25,275 nucleotides of DNA from a virus. The notes beneath the pieces were generated by a model. That model did no database searches. It had not been told where the DNA came from and worked only from the letters and a program-made list of their open reading frames with translations. Location of the stretch: IMG/VR virus record IMGVR_UViG_3300010373_000125, positions 1 through 25,275 of that record, one strand, 5' to 3'. Made by a program: the position numbers and the translations under genes. Shown here in pieces: positions 6,734 through 18,013 of this stretch (position 1 is its first letter; each line of letters opens with the position of its first letter).

Positions 6734-7124
6734 GATTGATAGTTACAGAACGCTAGATTCAACTCGTTTCACCGCGATTGAAATCGGCATTTTTCAGGAT
6801 ATGATTGCCAAAATCGAAGCGCAATCACAAATGGTGTTTAAAGGCACCAACCGTAAAACATTTGGGGAATCGATTGCTTTGATTCACTCAGAACTTTCTG
6901 AGGCTTTAGAAGCCTATAATAAAGATCTTATGGATCATCATCTTCCTCACAGAAAAGGCGTCGAAGTAGAACTGGCGGACGCCATCTATCGAATTTTCCT
7001 TCTCGCAGCCAAAGAAGGTTATGATATTGCTTCTGCTTTAGCTGAAAAGAAGCTTTATAATCAAACAAGAGAAGATCACAAACCAGAGAACCGTGCAAAG
7101 CAAGGTGGAAAGAAGTTAGTATGA
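6723..7124 (+). CDS. MazG-like nucleoside triphosphate pyrophosphohydrolase
   Basis: A 133-residue all-alpha NTP-PPase. The family motif is present as E57-x-x-E60 in 'HSELSEALEAY' followed by E83-x-x-D86 in 'VEVELADAIYRI', which coordinate magnesium. The C-terminal 'LYNQTREDHKPENR' is typical of phage MazG-like proteins. Such enzymes hydrolyse (d)NTPs to monophosphates. In a phage this can clean the nucleotide pool, remove unmodified or unusual dNTPs, or blunt stringent signalling. It is coupled to the deformylase downstream by an ATGA overlap. Confidence 0.85.
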   Translation: MDYRIDSYRTLDSTRFTAIEIGIFQDMIAKIEAQSQMVFKGTNRKTFGESIALIHSELSEALEAYNKDLMDHHLPHRKGVEVELADAIYRIFLLAAKEGYDIASALAEKKLYNQTREDHKPENRAKQGGKKLV

Positions 7125-7636
7125 CTGTTTTGACACTTGTCAAATATACTGATCCTGTTCTACACAAAGAGGCGGCGGAATTTGATTTTTCTAAACCGCC
7201 ATTGGATCCAGTGCTTCTAGCAAAAGATTTGGCCGAGACAATGGCTGCTAAGTCTGCGCTAGGTTTAGCTGCACCACAGGTCGGCATTCCCTATCGCGTG
7301 TTTGCAGTGGCTTCTAACCCTGTTCTCGTGATGTTCAACCCTTTGATGGTTGACGTCTCTGAAGAGAAGGCAGAATTCCCTGAAGGTTGTCTCAGCTTTC
7401 CTGGTGTTATGATCAAAAAAATGCGTCCGAAGTCAATTAAGATTCGTTATGCTTACCCGAATGGAGAAGTCAAGACGGAGAAATATACCGATTTGACCGC
7501 TCGAATCATTCTCCACGAGTATGATCATATCGCGGGAGTGACTTTCATGGATGATCTTTCGAAGCTGAAAAAGGATATGGCTTTTAAGAAGGCTAACAAA
7601 TTGATGCGTGAAGATTATTACAGGACGACTCTATGA
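7121..7636 (+). CDS. def: Peptide deformylase
   Basis: A 171-residue metalloprotease that removes the formyl group from nascent proteins. All three family motifs are intact: 'GLAAPQVGI' (residues 48-56), 'EGCLS' (88-92, metal ligand C90) and 'HEYDH' (132-136, ligands H132 and H136, catalytic E133). At 171 residues it is near bacterial length, without the long C-terminal helix of some cellular enzymes. Deformylases recur in phages, where they are thought to support rapid maturation of N-termini during infection. The start overlaps the preceding stop by ATGA. Confidence 0.94.
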   Translation: MTVLTLVKYTDPVLHKEAAEFDFSKPPLDPVLLAKDLAETMAAKSALGLAAPQVGIPYRVFAVASNPVLVMFNPLMVDVSEEKAEFPEGCLSFPGVMIKKMRPKSIKIRYAYPNGEVKTEKYTDLTARIILHEYDHIAGVTFMDDLSKLKKDMAFKKANKLMREDYYRTTL

Positions 7637-7676: not shown

Positions 7677-8399
7677 ATGGCCCAGAGTCTTGAAGAGTGG
7701 ATCGAAACACACGTTAAGCATTATGATAAGATTGATGTGAAGACGGTCTATAACCAATTATTTTTTAGAGAAGAAGTCCGTCCTACTTTCTATGAGCCGA
7801 TGAAATTCTACGCTCCGGCGGACGGAGTGATCATCAACCAGAAAGTGGTCAAACCACAAGAAAAGATTGTAGAGATCAAAGGGCAGAATTATACTCTAGA
7901 GCATATTCTTCCGGGTCAAAGGCTAGAAAACAGAAATTATTACGTCATCGGGATCTTCATGACATTGTTTGATGTTCATGTGAACCGGATGGCGACTTCT
8001 GGGTTTCTCCATTTTGAAGATGTTGCTCCGATCCTTTCCAACAATCTCTCGATGATTTTCATGGAAAAGGACATCTTCAAGGGAAACATTAATTACAAAG
8101 AGAGCGATTACCAGTATCTTTTTTATAATGAGAGAGTTATTAATAGAATTCTGAATCCGGAACTTGGTCTGAAATATTACATGGTGCAAATTGCGGACGC
8201 TGATGTCGGTTCTATCACGCATTTCACTCGCAGCCAGCACAAGTATTTCTTGCAAGGAGAAAGATTCTCATTTATTCGTTGGGGGAGTCAACTAGATTTG
8301 ATCATTCCTGAGGATCCTAAATACAAGTTGAGATTTCTCCAGAACGAAATGATGCATGTTAAAGCTGGAGAAGATTTATTGATTGAGGTATCAAAATGA
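7677..8399 (+). CDS. Phosphatidylserine-decarboxylase-like pyruvoyl enzyme
   Basis: A 240-residue protein with family landmarks in order: 'APADG' (46-50, D49), 'IKGQNYTLEHIL' (67-78), 'FMTLFDVHVNR' (94-104, D99 and H101), 'NER' (151-153), 'ADADVGSI' (173-180) and 'GERFSFIRWGSQ' (194-205). The family self-cleaves between Gly and Ser of an LGST/GGSS motif to make a catalytic pyruvoyl group. Here the motif is W-G-S-Q with G203-S204 kept, so cleavage is plausible. There is no membrane anchor, as in the short soluble class. Substrate could be phosphatidylserine, but the neighbours also allow a serine-type adduct on a DNA base (inference). It overlaps the pentein gene by ATGA. Confidence 0.83.
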   Translation: MAQSLEEWIETHVKHYDKIDVKTVYNQLFFREEVRPTFYEPMKFYAPADGVIINQKVVKPQEKIVEIKGQNYTLEHILPGQRLENRNYYVIGIFMTLFDVHVNRMATSGFLHFEDVAPILSNNLSMIFMEKDIFKGNINYKESDYQYLFYNERVINRILNPELGLKYYMVQIADADVGSITHFTRSQHKYFLQGERFSFIRWGSQLDLIIPEDPKYKLRFLQNEMMHVKAGEDLLIEVSK

Positions 8400-9304
8400 A
8401 AACTGAACAAGATTTAAAGATTCCAGCGTTCTTGATGTGTGCTCCGTATAATCTGGCCACAACCGAACCAAATAATATTTGGATGCATGAGATGAGCAGG
8501 AAGGAACTCGAAGTCAACGTTGATCGTGCAATTTCTCAGTGGTTTAACCTTTACTTCATTCTTTCTACCTCCGCTTTGGTCAAGTTGATTCCCACTGTAG
8601 AAGGCTTGCAAGATCAAGTTTATGTAGCCAATCTTGGCATCATGCTTCCCCATCTTTCGGGAAATAAGATCGTTGTTTCAAATTTCCTTTCGCCTCCGCG
8701 TAGGGGTGAGCAACCAATCGGAATCAAATATTTCTCGATGAACAATAAGAATGTCTATACGCCGAGCGAAACCTGGGAAGGTGAGGCAGATCTCAAATTC
8801 GTTCGTGACAATCTATATATCGGCGGATATGGCCAGCGTACAAATCCCCTTGCCTACGATTGGTTCGAGCGGTCTTTTGATATGAAGATCATCCGCCTGA
8901 AGATGGTAGATGAATATCTTTACCATCTAGATTGCTCTGTTTTTCCGTTGAATACGCAAAAAGTGCTTGTTTGCACTTCCCTTTATGAGAAGCAAGAATT
9001 AGAGGAACTAGAAAAGCACGTAGAGATCGTTGACGTTCCTATTGACGATGCTTACTACGGTGCAACAAATAGTTGCCGCGTAGGTTCTATGGTTCTTTCT
9101 CATAGCAATCTTTTCGAGTATAGAATCGGTGATGAACATTATCAAGGCGAGAAGCATAAGACGGAATTCTTGACCAAAGCTTGTGAAGATGCTGGACTCG
9201 AACCGATGTTCGTAAACATCTCTGAATTCATGAAATCGGGTGCGATGCTCTCATGCATGATCATGCATCTCAATTATCACGATTATTCTTATCCGAATCA
9301 ATAA
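8396..9304 (+). CDS. Pentein-fold amidinotransferase/amidinohydrolase
   Basis: A 302-residue member of the superfamily holding glycine amidinotransferase, arginine deiminase and dimethylarginine dimethylaminohydrolase. Visible landmarks are N-terminal 'CAPYNLATTEPNNIWM', 'GEADLKF' (129-135, acidic residues E130 and D132), 'GGYGQRTN' (143-150), 'YHLDCSVFPL' (176-185, catalytic H177), 'YGATNSCRVGSMVL' (221-234) and C-terminal 'GAMLSCMIMHLN' with the catalytic cysteine C287. All acting residues appear intact. The reaction (amidino transfer from arginine to an amine, or hydrolysis of a guanidine) cannot be decided from sequence. Translational coupling to the PSD-like gene suggests a joint pathway. 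Confidence 0.82.
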   Translation: MKTEQDLKIPAFLMCAPYNLATTEPNNIWMHEMSRKELEVNVDRAISQWFNLYFILSTSALVKLIPTVEGLQDQVYVANLGIMLPHLSGNKIVVSNFLSPPRRGEQPIGIKYFSMNNKNVYTPSETWEGEADLKFVRDNLYIGGYGQRTNPLAYDWFERSFDMKIIRLKMVDEYLYHLDCSVFPLNTQKVLVCTSLYEKQELEELEKHVEIVDVPIDDAYYGATNSCRVGSMVLSHSNLFEYRIGDEHYQGEKHKTEFLTKACEDAGLEPMFVNISEFMKSGAMLSCMIMHLNYHDYSYPNQ

Positions 9305-9357: not shown

Positions 9358-10740
9358 ATGACTGAAAAACACTGTAAAAGTTACATTGACGGTACTTGTG
9401 TAGAATGCGATAGATTGCCCGCAAAAGTGATCCAAGCTGAGAAAAAGTACGACTGTGAAGATATTATCGGCCAATTTATAGGAGCAGAACGCTATGACAT
9501 TTTGGTTGAGGATGATTGTGATTTCTATGCTCCTTCTTTGGATGGCAGCAGAACTGAACAAAACATTATCTTCAAGTACCGCAAGCATATCTTTACTCCT
9601 GAAGAATGTGAACTCGCTTACGCGGGATTAAAAGAAGCTGCTCAAGAAACGCAGAACCGAGGAGATGCTGCTGGCCCAAGAGGCCAAATCCTTATTTCTG
9701 AGAAGCGTGGCGGTCGTGAATGGGTGACTGATTACCAGAGAGAAGTCTTAAAGTGGCTTCAGCGTCCGGATAATGTTCTAGATGATGGCCAAACGCTCCA
9801 AGATATTCAGAACAAGTATAAGAATCGTGATCAATCTACGGACACCAGAGGACAAGTTTGGCTCCGCAGCAAAGTCATCGATAAGTTGGTGAAGGATGAA
9901 ACAAAATATTTTGGGTGGTTTGATCGTTGGGTTGATGATGTTATGCGTCTTTCTAGAAATGAGCAGCGAAAAGATGCAGCCATTATCGAAAGCTATATTT
10001 CTGTCACGAATTATGCTCAGGGTGCTATGTCAGGAATTGCGGGATATTATGATAGATATCCGCGCTATCCGTACGGTAGACCAACATCTTATACGGAGAA
10101 GAGCAAAGAAGATTTTGAAAAATCATTCCCGTATTTGAGGAAGCTTGATCAATGCTTCCGGAACCTTCTTCCTGAACGCTGGACAAACCAACGCAAGGCA
10201 GCTGATAAGCTGGATCCGAAATTCGTCATCGATTCTACGGTCTTTACGACCCTTACAATCAATTATAACTGGCGAACAGCTTGCCACCGAGATGCTTCTG
10301 ATCTTCCAACAGGATTTTCTAATATCAGTGCTGTCGGCAGAGGTTGGCAAGGAGCAGAATTCATCCTTCCCGAATATCGCGTTGCGGTAAAGTTGGAACC
10401 TGGAGATTTGCTCCTTGTCAACAATCATGAAGGCATCCACGCCAATGAGGCATTGATTGGAGACGATAATGACAGATTGTCTATCGTCGCCTACTTTCGT
10501 GAACCTATGTTGGATCTCGGCTCTTATGAGTATGAGGCAACGAGACGAAAATACGTTGACGAACGTCGTTATAACAAGGAGCACCCTCTACAGAGACATC
10601 TTTGGAATGGGATTTCCCAAGGAATGTGGGAGGAAAAAGAATGGTATGATTGGTTGAGGAATCAACCGAACGGTGAAGCAATGCTGAAGGAATATCATCC
10701 GGAAGCAGTTGTGGAAAACTCTTTGGAGAATTTCTTTTAA
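9358..10740 (+). CDS. TET/JBP-family 2-oxoglutarate/Fe(II) dioxygenase
   Basis: A 460-residue protein whose C-terminal half carries a double-stranded beta-helix core of the TET/JBP type: 'TTLTINYNWRTACHRDAS' with iron ligands H310 and D312, 'GWQGAEFILPEYRVAV' (329-344), 'LEPGDLLLVNNHEGIHAN' with H361, and 'DRLSIVAYFRE' with the 2-oxoglutarate arginine R373. TET/JBP enzymes hydroxylate the 5-methyl of 5-methylcytosine or thymine within DNA, and phage members feed further base modification. The N-terminus has a CxxC pair ('DGTCVECD', C14 and C17). The last residues 'NSLENFF' resemble a sliding-clamp-binding tail. Which base is oxidised is unknown. A collagen-type prolyl hydroxylase is the less likely alternative. 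Confidence 0.85.
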   Translation: MTEKHCKSYIDGTCVECDRLPAKVIQAEKKYDCEDIIGQFIGAERYDILVEDDCDFYAPSLDGSRTEQNIIFKYRKHIFTPEECELAYAGLKEAAQETQNRGDAAGPRGQILISEKRGGREWVTDYQREVLKWLQRPDNVLDDGQTLQDIQNKYKNRDQSTDTRGQVWLRSKVIDKLVKDETKYFGWFDRWVDDVMRLSRNEQRKDAAIIESYISVTNYAQGAMSGIAGYYDRYPRYPYGRPTSYTEKSKEDFEKSFPYLRKLDQCFRNLLPERWTNQRKAADKLDPKFVIDSTVFTTLTINYNWRTACHRDASDLPTGFSNISAVGRGWQGAEFILPEYRVAVKLEPGDLLLVNNHEGIHANEALIGDDNDRLSIVAYFREPMLDLGSYEYEATRRKYVDERRYNKEHPLQRHLWNGISQGMWEEKEWYDWLRNQPNGEAMLKEYHPEAVVENSLENFF

Positions 10741-11772: not shown

Positions 11773-12131
11773 TTGACTTAGATATTTTTTACCATTATAT
11801 TGGGATGTTTGTAACCTGGGTTGGTGCTTTTACCTTCGCCCTTTGCGTAGCAGCGGTCATCGTCAGCCTCTTCGCTTACTATTTTCCGAGGATCCATTTC
11901 GGAAAGACAAAACACGAAGGATATCTGCAATTCCACCAGAAATATGGAATCATCACATACAAGGATGATTTCAAAAAAGAAACGACCTGGAAGACAGAAG
12001 TTTTTCAGAAATATAAACTCAAGAGAATCTTTGGTCTTAGCCGGAAACAAAAGCCGACTTGGATGCTCGCTCTTATAACATTTGATGGTAAAAATTATGC
12101 GTACGATTTTCCCCCAGATAAGTCTGAATAG
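11769..12131 (+). CDS. Single-pass membrane protein (120 aa)
   Basis: A 120-residue protein with one strong hydrophobic segment (residues about 10-37, 'YIGMFVTWVGAFTFALCVAA' and following) and a basic cytoplasmic tail. The tail includes 'KYKLKRIFGLSRKQKPTW' and ends 'DKSE'. It is joined to the previous gene by an ATGA overlap, and its end overlaps the start of the PLP enzyme by about 47 nt. Function unknown. It could anchor a partner at the inner membrane. Confidence 0.65.
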   Translation: MIDLDIFYHYIGMFVTWVGAFTFALCVAAVIVSLFAYYFPRIHFGKTKHEGYLQFHQKYGIITYKDDFKKETTWKTEVFQKYKLKRIFGLSRKQKPTWMLALITFDGKNYAYDFPPDKSE

Positions 12132-13182
12132 AGACGAAATTCACTGGGAAGACTATTTAGAAGTTCTAACTCCAGTCGAGAAAGTAGGAAAGCTATGGTT
12201 TAAACGAGGGGATTATTTCGCTCCTCTTGGCTACGGCTTTATCAACGGAGACAAAGTCAAAGTAGGTATTCATATTTTCAATGAGTATATTAAAGATAAA
12301 CACGATGCCATTCTCGGCGGCATGTCTTTACATTCTCCGCAACATTCCTTCCAAGCTGTTGCCGCTAAACATTATAATATTCCTTCTTATCATATCATTG
12401 GTAGTACGACTCCTGAATCTGCACTAAGGCACGAGAATATAGAAATCGCCGCTCGATTTGGTGCCAAGTTTAAAATCATCAATATCGCGTACAATCCGGC
12501 GATCCAGAAGGCTGTTCAGGATGAGATGAAGCTTCGCTTCCAGAATGCTTATCCTCTCGGGTATGCTATCTCCCTCGACCACCATAAAGAACCCGCTGCT
12601 GAGATTGAGAAATTTCATCGGATTGCTTCTCATCAAGCTGAAAATATTCCAGACCATATTGAAAACATCGTAATCCCTGCCGGGTCATGTAATTCTACTA
12701 CCGGAATTCTCTATGGTTTGGCCTTGCATCGTCCCAAGAATCTGAGAAATGTTTACTTGATCGGAATTGGCCCACAGAAGATCAATTATTTTGAGGAACG
12801 GCTTGACATCATCGAAAAGGTTACGAAGAAGGATATAAAGATCTATAAAAGAAATTTCGTGGATCATCCGGAACTGAGCAATTCTATCCTTGACTTTTTT
12901 CAGGATGATGACGGAAAATATAATTTGCACTACCATGATCTTCAGAAGCGCAAGATCTATGAATATGCGGATACGGAGACTTGTAACTATGAAGGTATAG
13001 AATTGCATCCTCGCTACGAAGCCAAAGTCTTCAAATGGATGTACGAGAATCTTAACGCTGCTTTGATGAACGATAAGACATTGTTCTGGATCATCGGTTC
13101 TGCGCCAAGGATGTCGGCTTTAATGAACAACGAGGCTTTGGTGAAGCAGCTTACACAGCCGGAGTTTAAAACATGGGTTTGA
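12085..13182 (+). CDS. Fold-type-II PLP-dependent enzyme (ACC-deaminase/threonine-synthase-like)
   Basis: A 365-residue protein of the tryptophan-synthase-beta fold. 'LWFKRGDYFAPLGYGFINGDKVK' corresponds to the family 'KREDlf...NGgKvR' segment, making K57 in 'NGDK' the likely Schiff-base lysine. 'LGGMSLHSPQHSFQAVAAK' is the phosphate/substrate loop of ACC-deaminase-like members, and 'IVIPAGSCNSTTGILYGL' is the glycine-rich PLP-phosphate loop. Such phage enzymes occur with DNA base hypermodification genes, where PLP chemistry remodels an amino-acid adduct (knowledge of the pathway type). A role here is inferred. The start is uncertain: ATG 12085, ATG 12097 and TTG 12082 are all in frame within the preceding gene, with no clear ribosome site. 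Confidence 0.8.
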   Translation: MVKIMRTIFPQISLNRDEIHWEDYLEVLTPVEKVGKLWFKRGDYFAPLGYGFINGDKVKVGIHIFNEYIKDKHDAILGGMSLHSPQHSFQAVAAKHYNIPSYHIIGSTTPESALRHENIEIAARFGAKFKIINIAYNPAIQKAVQDEMKLRFQNAYPLGYAISLDHHKEPAAEIEKFHRIASHQAENIPDHIENIVIPAGSCNSTTGILYGLALHRPKNLRNVYLIGIGPQKINYFEERLDIIEKVTKKDIKIYKRNFVDHPELSNSILDFFQDDDGKYNLHYHDLQKRKIYEYADTETCNYEGIELHPRYEAKVFKWMYENLNAALMNDKTLFWIIGSAPRMSALMNNEALVKQLTQPEFKTWV

Positions 13183-13401: not shown

Positions 13402-13939
13402 ATGAATGGGAACATAAAGGACATAAAAAATCAAAGATTTGGTAGATTGGTTGTTTTAGAATTGTTGTCCGAAAATCCTCCTAAGTGGAAATGTCAATGT
13501 GATTGTGGAAATACAACAAACGTACAAGGAACAACTTTAAGATATGGAACAACAAAAAGTTGTGGGTGTTTGCGAAAGGAATATAATAAACGACCAAAAC
13601 CCTATAAACAAAAGAGACCTTATGAATACCTGTATAACAATTTAACAAAAAGTTCTAAAGAACGATCAATAATCTGCAAATTAACTTATGAAGAATTTTT
13701 AGAACTAGTAAATATAAAGAATTGTTTTTATTGTAATAATGAAATAGATTGGGCACCACCCTTTACTCCCGAAAGGGGGAAAGCAACAAAGAACCAATTT
13801 AGATAGAAAAAACAACAAAGGAATTTATGAAAAAGAAAATGTTGTTGTTTGTTGTTGGAAATGTAATGATGGAAAGGGTGCGCGATATACATTTGAAGAA
13901 TGGTTTGGAATGACGAAATATTTTAGAGAAAAGAGATGA
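13402..13939 (+). pseudogene. Frameshifted HNH homing endonuclease
   Basis: The first frame (13402-13806) encodes a zinc-rich N-terminal module ('RFGRLVVLELL', 'WKCQCDCGN', 'TTKSCGCLRKEY') found in phage HNH homing endonucleases, then the first half of the HNH domain ('CFYCNNEIDW'), before a premature stop. The next frame (from about 13780 to the TGA at 13937-13939) supplies the rest: 'TNLDRKNNKGIYEKENVVVC', then 'CWKCNDGKGARYTFEEW'. Removing one G from the GGGGG run at 13775-13779 joins the two parts into one continuous reading frame ('ERGKQQRTNLDRKNN'). The A+T-rich composition differs from neighbours, consistent with a recent mobile gene. Either the gene is decayed, a sequencing error sits in the G run, or the frame is shifted during expression. 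Confidence 0.82.
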
Positions 13940-15012
13940 TAGATTATAGACTTCCTGAATATAGAAGAAAAGTTTTTTTGGATTTCTATAAATTTCATTC
14001 TAAGTACAAGGGACATCCAGGATTTGTATATGGATTGATGCCCTATTTTTCAGAGGTATTCCATCTAGACCAAGAACAAAAATTTACGGTTGCTTATCTA
14101 AATGGAATCTGGCAGAACATGATCAGCACGTGGTTGATCTTTGAAAGATTTCCAACATTAAAAGAACTCAATTCTCCTAGCTTTTCTAAATGGTTCCGTG
14201 AGAATTATGAGAAGCTTGGAATTGATACGGATCGCCGCTACGTCAAAAATCAGCTGGAGAAATGCATAGAGAACTACGTCAAAGTTCTTGACGGAAAATC
14301 CCAGGTTGATTTCTTCGGAGACCTCAGTAAATCCCAAAACACCTACGAAAATTTCAACAAGGTTTGGGACAAGGTGATAACAGATTTTTATCTTTTCGGG
14401 AGGCTTGCAACCTTTTCTTATACTGAATATCTAAGAATTATGGGGTTGAACATTGAATGTTATTCCTTGTTCTTGGATGATATATCGGGGAGTCGCTCTC
14501 ATCGTAATGGACTGTGTAAAGTGATGGGATGGGACTCTCTGATATATGATGATAAGCTAAACCCTGGATTCGAGGGAAAATATACTACAGAACAAATTGA
14601 GATGATGGCAGAGGCGGGAGACGAGTTGCTGCAAGCCTCTTTTGATTCTGCCGTTGAGGATCCTAGTTTTTTCACACTAGAATCAACGTTCTGCTGCTAC
14701 AAATCGTGGCATAAAAAGAACCGTCGTTATCCAAATTGTTATAACGACATGTTTCACGATAGAATTAAATTTTCGGAAGCAAGATGGGACGGGAAAGTAG
14801 ATCTTTCTCATTTCTGGAAGGCGCGGAAAGTCTACCTACCGGATTATTTGAGGTTGGAGGACAACCCCAATGATCCGGGTCTTGTTCCTGAAAAACAGAA
14901 TTGGTATAGAGAAACCGGCCAAGTCATTATGATGTCGAAGGATTTCCCTGAGTATGATAATCCTTTTGACCGCAAGATTTGGAGCAAAGGATTGGAGAGT
15001 TTCTATGATTGA
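13936..15012 (+). CDS. Probable amino-acid:DNA transferase (thymine hypermodification family)
   Basis: A 358-residue, tryptophan- and tyrosine-rich helical protein. The N-terminal 'FYKFHSKYKGHPGFVYGLMP' (18-36), then 'AYLNGIWQNMISTWLIFERF' (53-72) and 'DDISGSRSHRNGLCKVMGWD' resemble what I remember of the ADDT-type proteins of phage base-hypermodification loci. There a DNA-glycosylase-like helical fold replaces the phosphate on a phosphorylated hydroxymethyluracil with an amino acid. This family match is from memory and is the least certain key call. Support comes from context: a P-loop kinase, a dioxygenase and a PLP enzyme lie close by. The C-terminus 'GLESFYD' resembles a clamp-binding tail. 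The ATG overlaps the HNH stop (ATGA). Confidence 0.6.
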   Translation: MIDYRLPEYRRKVFLDFYKFHSKYKGHPGFVYGLMPYFSEVFHLDQEQKFTVAYLNGIWQNMISTWLIFERFPTLKELNSPSFSKWFRENYEKLGIDTDRRYVKNQLEKCIENYVKVLDGKSQVDFFGDLSKSQNTYENFNKVWDKVITDFYLFGRLATFSYTEYLRIMGLNIECYSLFLDDISGSRSHRNGLCKVMGWDSLIYDDKLNPGFEGKYTTEQIEMMAEAGDELLQASFDSAVEDPSFFTLESTFCCYKSWHKKNRRYPNCYNDMFHDRIKFSEARWDGKVDLSHFWKARKVYLPDYLRLEDNPNDPGLVPEKQNWYRETGQVIMMSKDFPEYDNPFDRKIWSKGLESFYD

Positions 15013-15277: not shown

Positions 15278-15544
15278 ATGTTCATCAATATAATTGGTAC
15301 ACTAGGCAATCTCGGATTTGCCTACGCTTGCCTACCTACAGCATGGAAAACCTTTAAAGCTGGTAAAAGCATCGGAGTTCCAGTCAGTCTTGCTTGGAAT
15401 ATTTGGGTTTCCTGTTTACTTTTTTACTCATATACGTTTTTATCATATACAGATGATATCCTAGTTTGGATCGGTGGTATGGTTGAGATTTCCTCCTATA
15501 CTGTCGTTCTTTGGTATCATTATTTACCCAGGAGAACAAAATGA
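15278..15544 (+). CDS. SemiSWEET/PQ-loop-like small membrane transporter
   Basis: An 88-residue protein with three predicted membrane helices (about residues 3-22, 36-54 and 61-82). It carries the family start 'IGTLGNLGFAYACLPTAWKT' followed by 'GKSIGVPVSLAWN', where the conserved Pro in helix 1 and 'SIGVP' after the first loop are typical of bacterial SemiSWEET proteins. These form dimers that move sugars or other small molecules down gradients. A phage copy inside a modification-gene block could bring a precursor into the cell or be a metabolic helper (inference). It overlaps the kinase start by ATGA. Confidence 0.75.
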   Translation: MFINIIGTLGNLGFAYACLPTAWKTFKAGKSIGVPVSLAWNIWVSCLLFYSYTFLSYTDDILVWIGGMVEISSYTVVLWYHYLPRRTK

Positions 15545-16110
15545 AAATCGTCTGTCTACTAGGCGAGCCGGGAGCAGGCAAATCGACTTTGATGAAACGA
15601 TTGATTGATGAATTAGACGTCAATCTTCGTTATTTTGATGCCGTTGATCTTGTTCCGTTTCATACGAATTCTGATAGGAAAATCATGGTTCTAGGAAAGT
15701 ATGAAGACGGAGAAGTCTTTGGTGGAACCGATAAGATGAGCATGCAGGTTCAGGCTTATGCGGTAGAGTTTCTAGATAATCTAGACAAGAACACGCTTTT
15801 CAAGGATGTGGAAGTCATTCTCTTTGAGGGTGATCGTCTAGCAAATTCAAAGTTCCTAGAACATTTTTCTGAAGATCATCAACTTTATGTGATTTATCTT
15901 CAGACGTCGGAAAAAACCAGGAAGCAGCGTTTCCTAGAAAGAAACAGTGATCAAAACGAAACTTGGCTTGCTGGTAGAAATACAAAGGTTCAGAACATCG
16001 TAAAGAATTTCCTTTTGATGGATTACATTGAGAAATGGGATAACAATAATTTGGAAGATCAATCCAAAATTGTAGCAAGAGTAGAAGGTATAGTGTATGA
16101 CAGAGATTAA
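15541..16110 (+). CDS. P-loop kinase resembling 5-hydroxymethyluracil DNA kinase
   Basis: A 189-residue P-loop kinase with Walker A 'GEPGAGKST' (8-16), a distinctive 'LGKYEDGEVFGGTDKMSMQV' block (51-70), the 'LFEGDRL' acidic motif (94-100) and a lid-like 'FLERNSDQNETWLAGRNTKV' (131-150). This combination of GTDxxS and EGDR motifs recurs in phage kinases annotated next to base-hypermodification enzymes, where they phosphorylate hydroxymethyluracil in DNA. I rely on memory for that. A small-molecule or nucleotide kinase remains possible. The ATG at 15541 follows AGGAGAACAAA and overlaps the stop of the transporter gene. An in-frame start 30 nt upstream is rejected. Confidence 0.7.
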   Translation: MKIVCLLGEPGAGKSTLMKRLIDELDVNLRYFDAVDLVPFHTNSDRKIMVLGKYEDGEVFGGTDKMSMQVQAYAVEFLDNLDKNTLFKDVEVILFEGDRLANSKFLEHFSEDHQLYVIYLQTSEKTRKQRFLERNSDQNETWLAGRNTKVQNIVKNFLLMDYIEKWDNNNLEDQSKIVARVEGIVYDRD

Positions 16111-17029: not shown

Positions 17030-18013
17030 ATGCCAGAAATTAACATTGAATTAGATGTACTTAGGAAGCGTTCGATTTTTCTAGCTGTCCCAATGTATGG
17101 TGGCCAATGCCACGGCATGTTTGCCCGATCTGTAGCAGATCTCACCGGAATGACAACGCACTACGGAATCCAGCTACAGCTTTATTTCCTATTTAACGAA
17201 AGTCTCATCCAGCGCGCAAGAAATTATTGTGCGGATGAATTCATGCGTTCAAACTGCTCGCATTTCTTGTTCATTGACTCCGATATCGGATTTAATGCCA
17301 AGGATGTTCTAGCAATGTTGGCTCTTCAATCTGACGAAAGTCCTTATGATGTCATCGCCGCTCCCTATCCTAAGAAGTGCATTTCTTGGGAGAAGATCAA
17401 GCAGGCAGTTGATAAGGGTGTCGCAGATCAAAATCCTGGAATTCTAGACCAGTTCGTTGGTGATTATGTTTTCAATCCAAAGGCGAGCGTTGGTGGAAGC
17501 ATTCCTCTCAATGAGCCTGTAGAAGTTTCCGAGGCTGGAACGGGTTTCATGATGATCCGCCGCAAGACCATGGAGAACTTCGTCGCGAATTATCCAGAGA
17601 AGATGTACCGTCCGGATCATGTCCGCACAGAACATTTTGACGGTTCTCGTGATATTTGCGCTTTCTTCGGTGTCGATGTCGATAAGGGTCGTGACGAAAA
17701 GAAGCTTCGTCAAATTGTTGAATTCTTGCAGAATTCTGGCGATATGAACAAGGAAGCAGTAAACTCTTTGGCCGCAGAATTGCAGATTGCTTTGGAGAAT
17801 CCAGCTGCAAGCCGTCGTTTGCTTTCCGAGGATTATCAGTTTTGCTATGATTGTCAAAAGGTTGGGATGAAGACTTGGCTTTGTCCTTGGATTCAACTCC
17901 AGCACGCAGGAAGCTATGTTTTCGGTGGTTCTTTGGCCGCATTGGCTTCTATCGGTGCCGCAGCAACGGCAGATCCTGCTGCTCTAGGAAAGGATAAGAA
18001 GGTAAAGAAATGA
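17030..18013 (+). CDS. GT-A type glycosyltransferase
   Basis: A 327-residue protein of a type common in T4-like marine and soil phages. N-terminal 'IFLAVPMYGGQCHGMFARS' starts the Rossmann-like nucleotide-sugar fold, 'FNESLIQRARN' follows, and 'FLFIDSDIGF' holds the metal-binding DxD (D83, D85). 'AGTGFMMIRRKTME' and 'LSEDYQFCYDCQKVGMKTWL' correspond to acceptor-side segments, with 'LQHAGSYVFGGS' near the end. The tail after residue 300 is low-complexity Ala/Lys. Acceptor unknown: a hydroxymethylated base in phage DNA is attractive given the dioxygenase nearby, but a host surface glycan is possible. A GAGGAG ribosome site precedes the ATG. Confidence 0.82.
   Translation: MPEINIELDVLRKRSIFLAVPMYGGQCHGMFARSVADLTGMTTHYGIQLQLYFLFNESLIQRARNYCADEFMRSNCSHFLFIDSDIGFNAKDVLAMLALQSDESPYDVIAAPYPKKCISWEKIKQAVDKGVADQNPGILDQFVGDYVFNPKASVGGSIPLNEPVEVSEAGTGFMMIRRKTMENFVANYPEKMYRPDHVRTEHFDGSRDICAFFGVDVDKGRDEKKLRQIVEFLQNSGDMNKEAVNSLAAELQIALENPAASRRLLSEDYQFCYDCQKVGMKTWLCPWIQLQHAGSYVFGGSLAALASIGAAATADPAALGKDKKVKK

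Follow-up and report, generated by a model that had tools for sequence, protein, structure and literature searches.

The window, by which we mean the whole stretch of 25,275 bases that was analysed, an IMG/VR virus record, carries a T4-type core (UvsW, a gp47/gp46-like nuclease, late sigma factor, sliding clamp, clamp loader and RuvC-like resolvase). The decarboxylase gene under study overlaps a second gene, and both share the window with genes of a thymine-hypermodification module:

7677-8399, + strand: PSD-family decarboxylase proenzyme, proposed pyruvoyl-dependent ornithine decarboxylase (PF02666 and AF2 model)
7821-7823, + strand: codon of D49, family-conserved aspartate
7977-7979, + strand: codon of H101, family-conserved histidine
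8064-8066, + strand: codon of E130, clade-invariant acid inside an insertion
8196-8198, + strand: codon of D174, clade-invariant acid and candidate binder of a substrate side-chain cation
8280-8291, + strand: W202-G203-S204-Q205, with the predicted self-cleavage site G203/S204
8396-8399, + strand: ATGA overlap of the decarboxylase stop with the dihydrolase start
8396-9304, + strand: arginine-dihydrolase-like enzyme (302 aa) of the type of the ArgZ/AgrE N-terminal domain, for which conversion of arginine to ornithine is proposed
9358-10740: TET/JBP oxygenase
13936-15012: aGPT-Pplase relative, 35% to a Glutamicibacter phage gene annotated aGPT-Pplase clade 2
15511-16110: P-loop kinase, Ploopntkinase3 homologue

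The product of 13936-15012 also gave a Pfam match to aGPT-Pplase clade 3, below the cut-off. Just upstream of the decarboxylase lies a phage peptide deformylase gene (7121-7636, PF01327 E 7.5e-36); in Stenotrophomonas phage DLP_6 a deformylase gene adjoins a TET-like gene. Between the two modules, 12082-13182 encodes a PALP/D-cysteine-desulfhydrase-like protein (Pfam below cut-off, phrog_3650 at E 6e-90) with no relative in the loci examined. The phrog_1574 protein at 17030-18013 is possibly a glycosyltransferase, with a very weak Anp1 match only.

The PSD family is that of the self-cleaving decarboxylase behind the membrane lipid phosphatidylethanolamine. The ORF at 7677-8399 starts with ATG and encodes 240 aa, and its only Pfam match was PF02666 (PS_Dcarbxylase), with an E-value of 4.7e-27 over residues 29-234 and a score of 95.4 bits (cut-off 22), so that the family match is not due to chance. 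Homology to AdoMet_dc (PF02675), by which SpeDC and SpeDA are recognised, was not found in the same Pfam search. We located R201-W202-G203-S204-Q205, D49 and H101 in the protein, as claimed in an earlier reading made from the sequence only, which had also assigned it to this family. By analogy with the family, a cut is predicted between G203 and S204, with S204 turned into a pyruvoyl group. The AF2 model reached a pLDDT of 86.8, with low confidence at residues 136-147 and modest confidence around E130; one database hit (L003) was left out of the alignment used for structure prediction. The fold comparison proposed by the sequence-only reading gave a single significant match in the PDB, the PSD-family tryptophan decarboxylase PsiD (8x4q, E 2e-4), and did not return the E. 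coli PSD, an absence that should not be over-read, the PDB entries for that enzyme being cleaved chains.

We then compared the decarboxylase with its relatives. Phage homologues were found in Campylobacter Fletchervirus phages and in six Bacteroides phages (INPHARED), and profile scans recovered decarboxylase relatives in more than 200 IMG/VR contigs and dihydrolase relatives similarly in more than 200. A single-protein scan of the viral contigs returned no relatives; the viral sets are best matches to the query and not a random sample. About 25 bacterial loci (L181-L206) were also collected from Verrucomicrobiales, Actinomycetota and MAGs of Methylococcaceae, Thermodesulfobacteriota and Planctomycetota. 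G203, S204 and Q205 are invariant in the 44 non-redundant phage and bacterial members of this clade. Thus W-G-S-Q is indeed present, as the sequence-only reading had it, but is no one-off variant, GSQ being fixed in its own clade; nor were LGST and GGSS the right comparison, the nearest short-type PSDs carrying (R/K)FGS(R/S/C) at the cleavage site. Homologues lacking the Gly-Ser pair, which would have spoken against that reading, were absent among the 44. In 31 ordinary PSDs used for comparison the residue after the serine is R, S, C or others; GSQ occurs in two of them, both membrane-type (L207 and L212), and the motif is therefore characteristic of the clade without being exclusive to it.

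The catalytic positions D49, H101, N151 and G203/S204 are retained in nearly all members of both sets, with D49 and H101 present in 44/44 clade members and 31/31 ordinary PSDs. Two acids, by contrast, separate the sets. E130 is found in 44/44 clade members and lies in a clade-only insertion, also holding N123 and M126, where 31/31 ordinary PSDs show a gap. Position 174 is D throughout the clade (44/44) versus G in 27 and A in 4 of the ordinary PSDs. Judging from the sequences, newly fixed acids next to a catalytic core that is kept would be expected for a substrate with a positive side chain. In a maximum-likelihood tree a moderately supported branch (74/94) set the ordinary PSDs apart from the clade. 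The bacterial clade members had a maximum 19-residue Kyte-Doolittle hydropathy of 0.9-1.4, whereas ordinary short PSDs mostly reached 1.8-3.0, and by this measure no hydrophobic membrane-associating segment was found in the clade members. PSD equivalog models gave at best 57.9 bits with the window decarboxylase, more than 100 below cut-offs of 183 and more. Also, 16 of 17 bacterial carrier genomes contain a second, ordinary and higher-scoring PSD, the exception being a draft MAG, which makes phosphatidylethanolamine synthesis by the clade member unlikely.

The partner gene at 8396-9304 was examined by profile and by fold. A profile search of the PDB retrieved AgrE at 2.9e-32, and the AF2 model (pLDDT 92.2) matched AgrE/ArgZ best (E 3e-22, TM 0.82). 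The top 13 PDB fold matches were all arginine dihydrolases, followed by DDAH at 1e-13; amidinotransferases were weaker than DDAH and agmatine deiminase was at 1.8e-8. The key catalytic residues N79, H177 and C287 are intact in the window protein, and the AgrE positions N22, D65, N71, R90, E118, R139, H168, D170 and C264 are conserved in 24/24 members of the dihydrolase family. We take N71 to be the residue that sets a dihydrolase apart from a deiminase, and R90 and R139 to be the carboxylate-binding arginines of AgrE/ArgZ; PDB titles describe N71S and C264S mutants that trapped intermediate and substrate. The curated NCBIfam Arg_dihydro cut-off was missed by a wide margin (101.8 bits against 450), so the window protein is distantly related to these enzymes and may form another product. 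Fold ranking and residues made an amidinotransferase, the name given in GenBank to the Campylobacter phage proteins, or a dimethylargininase less likely. A dihydrolase is similarly favoured over a deiminase by the AgrE profile match, the fold ranking and the conserved residues.

The two genes are linked almost exclusively. Among the best 80 dihydrolase-anchored viral loci, 56 extended 1.5 kb or more to either side and could be evaluated, and in 56/56 a PSD-like gene lies directly downstream of the dihydrolase. From the other side, in 67 of 73 PSD-anchored viral loci a co-oriented dihydrolase gene lies no more than 2 kb away; the other six are Campylobacter phages, with the dihydrolase elsewhere in the genome. 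In one of these, GU296433, it is found at 33707-34690 under the annotation 'Aminidotransferase'. The halves of the pair are named 'phosphatidylserine decarboxylase' and 'Aminidotransferase' in GU296433.1 (L002) and in L277, about 42 kb apart, and both gene names are probably wrong. Of 50,697 phage records in INPHARED, all 45 with a GSQ-type PSD have a dihydrolase, and one extra record has a dihydrolase without PSD. In 142 sampled genomes from the order of Verrucomicrobiales genome G008, both families were present in the same 4 (Fisher p 6e-8), strong matches being counted and a fifth, weak dihydrolase match set aside. The loci and records are not independent of one another, but the same association turns up in unrelated backgrounds and with either order of the genes. 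Viruses usually show dihydrolase followed by PSD and bacteria mostly the reverse; the window has the bacterial order. Several viral dihydrolase-PSD pairs overlap by a TAATG-type junction, and the ATGA overlap in the window suggests a likely translational coupling. Two Bacteroides-type phages, L003 and L024, retain the pair, but L024 has its dihydrolase about 1.6 kb away from the decarboxylase and on the other strand, and a number of nearby genes are reversed as well.

Since the decarboxylase is found almost always with an arginine-cutting enzyme, the pair most likely leads from arginine to putrescine, a small polyamine required both for growth and for the multiplication of phages. We consider it probable that the two genes form an auxiliary metabolic module, arginine to ornithine to putrescine, in which the PSD-fold protein is a pyruvoyl ornithine decarboxylase. 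In the scheme we infer, the ArgZ/AgrE-type dihydrolase would hydrolyse L-arginine by way of an intermediate bound to C287, leaving L-ornithine, two ammonia and CO2. The decarboxylase proenzyme would cut itself at G203/S204 and the pyruvoyl group derived from S204 would bind ornithine through its alpha-amino group as a Schiff base, while the side-chain ammonium of ornithine may be gripped by D174 and/or E130; loss of CO2 would then release putrescine. A dihydrolase that yields ornithine, adjacent to a pyruvoyl amino-acid decarboxylase, points to putrescine as the product, and the phage would gain a larger polyamine pool in the infected cell. A literature search joining PSD, ODC, putrescine and arginine, with subscription papers outside its scope, returned nothing relevant by title or abstract, and neither gene of the pair is mentioned in the published transcriptome study of phage NCTC 12673.

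Other assignments were weighed against this route. The PSD-like enzyme might instead take arginine, giving agmatine, or citrulline, giving N-carbamoylputrescine, with the partner handling the product or acting as a deiminase. Phage pyruvoyl enzymes are known to use either arginine or ornithine (PMC9992855), and the superfamily of the partner includes agmatine deiminase and arginine deiminase. The partner is, however, nearest to arginine dihydrolases in fold and sequence, N71, R90 and R139 are all kept, and agmatine deiminase is a far poorer fold match (1.8e-8 against 3e-22). If the partner's substrate is an amino acid, the dihydrolase takes the first step and ornithine is the intermediate; we regard this other choice of substrate as rather unlikely. 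A true phosphatidylserine decarboxylase raising phosphatidylethanolamine in the infected cell agrees with the Pfam match, the GenBank annotation and the conserved catalytic residues. The sequence-only reading had already doubted such a role, and we rejected it on hydropathy, model cut-offs, the carriers' second PSD and the nature of the constant partner, an arginine enzyme and not a PS synthase; the invariant new acidic residues also argue against it, and it appears highly improbable. Soluble PSDs do exist, so that the low hydropathy weighs against PSD function and does not decide.

The same early reading offered a new substrate, which now seems probable, and named as an example a serine-like group attached to DNA, for which ornithine or another arginine-derived amino acid is the more likely replacement. 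The TET/JBP oxygenase, hydroxymethyl-base kinase homologue and aGPT-Pplase homologue of the window could suggest that the decarboxylase works on phage DNA, its substrate being an amino acid carried by 5-hydroxymethyluracil, as such pathways later modify appended groups. Relatives of the hypermodification module were found in mycobacteriophages, ViI-like Salmonella phages and 12 IMG/VR loci. None of these 12 has a PSD-like gene or the partner within the stretches examined, and among the loci examined the pair meets thymine-hypermodification genes in this window only. The modules therefore look independent, and a serine-like DNA group was discarded as the general role of the family. Bacteria carry the pair too, where it adjoins transporters and, in Verrucomicrobiales, a PotD/PotF-like protein; action on DNA would leave the constant arginine dihydrolase unexplained, and we give it very little probability. 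Alternatively, this phage might attach putrescine (or ornithine) from the pair to its thymine, in the manner of phiW-14, whose putrescinylthymine derives from ornithine-labelled putrescine (PMC5977210). The TET, kinase and aGPT-Pplase-like genes within the same window would fit, but each module is found without the other elsewhere and there is no direct link, so that this attachment seems most unlikely. Its fullest form, in which the aGPT-Pplase-like protein (13936-15012) would put arginine-derived putrescine or ornithine on thymine hydroxylated by TET/JBP and phosphorylated by the kinase (15511-16110), is a distinctly long shot; if true, this putrescinyl-type DNA would be a hypermodification with its own arginine-derived supply line.

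Returning to the arginine-to-putrescine route, we examined the polyamine genes of the carriers. In Verrucomicrobiales carriers, which are draft genomes, family searches found neither AdoMet_dc nor a full-length OKR-type decarboxylase, and agmatine deiminase in one genome only. The alanine-racemase-fold family PF02784 has as a rule one match per genome (two in G016), which is LysA in the one carrier scored and is read likewise in others. Some actinobacterial carriers do have conventional decarboxylases, which counts against the proposed route. A deoxyhypusine-synthase-like homospermidine synthase was present in 1/17 carrier bacteria. In 20 large carrier virus records no AdoMet_dc-family spermidine-pathway gene was found, so a downstream use of putrescine is not visible there. 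At several Verrucomicrobiales loci the pair is followed by genes for a MATE exporter and for a spermidine/putrescine-binding protein resembling PotD/PotF; L185, L186, L189-L191, L197 and L203 have the MATE exporter (as do most others), this PotD/PotF-like protein and also a hybrid histidine kinase, which may form a polyamine-sensing unit. L182, L183 and L184 (two actinobacteria and the Methylococcaceae MAG) have an ABC exporter at the pair or adjoining it. The GU296433 annotation likens the phage PSD to AF210249_12, which we take to belong to the bleomycin cluster. A natural-product role is possible in some bacteria.

If the proposed route is correct, the clade annotated as phosphatidylserine decarboxylase, including proteins of well-known Campylobacter phages, is misnamed; it would comprise ornithine decarboxylases of a fold undescribed for that reaction in searchable papers, coupled to an arginine dihydrolase. 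For some Verrucomicrobiales, whose putrescine route is missing, this two-step pathway would be a candidate, and among phages, in which PMC9992855 reports no arginase, it would be the first route of its kind from arginine to putrescine.

Several known systems resemble parts of this one. PsiD of Psilocybe, a PSD-family pyruvoyl-type self-cleaving L-tryptophan decarboxylase, provides a precedent for free amino acids as substrates within the PSD family (PMC12603985). It is eukaryotic, with a model chain of 350 residues, an aromatic substrate and 14% identity to the window decarboxylase. We know of no arginine-enzyme partner for PsiD. Short-type bacterial and archaeal PSDs (archaetidylserine decarboxylase) share the Pfam family, the D-V-H-V-N-R motif and D49/H101/N151/G203/S204, but have GSR, GSS or GSC, G or A at D174, hydrophobic segments, no E130 insertion and no dihydrolase neighbour. 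The window partner and ArgZ/AgrE are alike in fold and in catalytic N71, H168 and C264 and differ in identity (about 26%), the partner being a stand-alone domain without the ornithine cyclodeaminase part and below the NCBIfam cut-off. The pyruvoyl ornithine and arginine decarboxylases SpeDC and SpeDA of phages and bacteria, of which phage-encoded ones have been shown to make putrescine or agmatine, derive from AdoMet decarboxylase, whereas the window protein matches PF02666 only; the papers on them mention neither phosphatidylserine decarboxylase nor arginine dihydrolase (PMC9992855, PMC10407285). The giant virus Klosneuvirus KNV1 encodes an arginase and an ornithine decarboxylase leading from arginine through ornithine to putrescine (PMC9992855), with enzymes unrelated to those of the window at both steps, a manganese arginase and a PLP decarboxylase.
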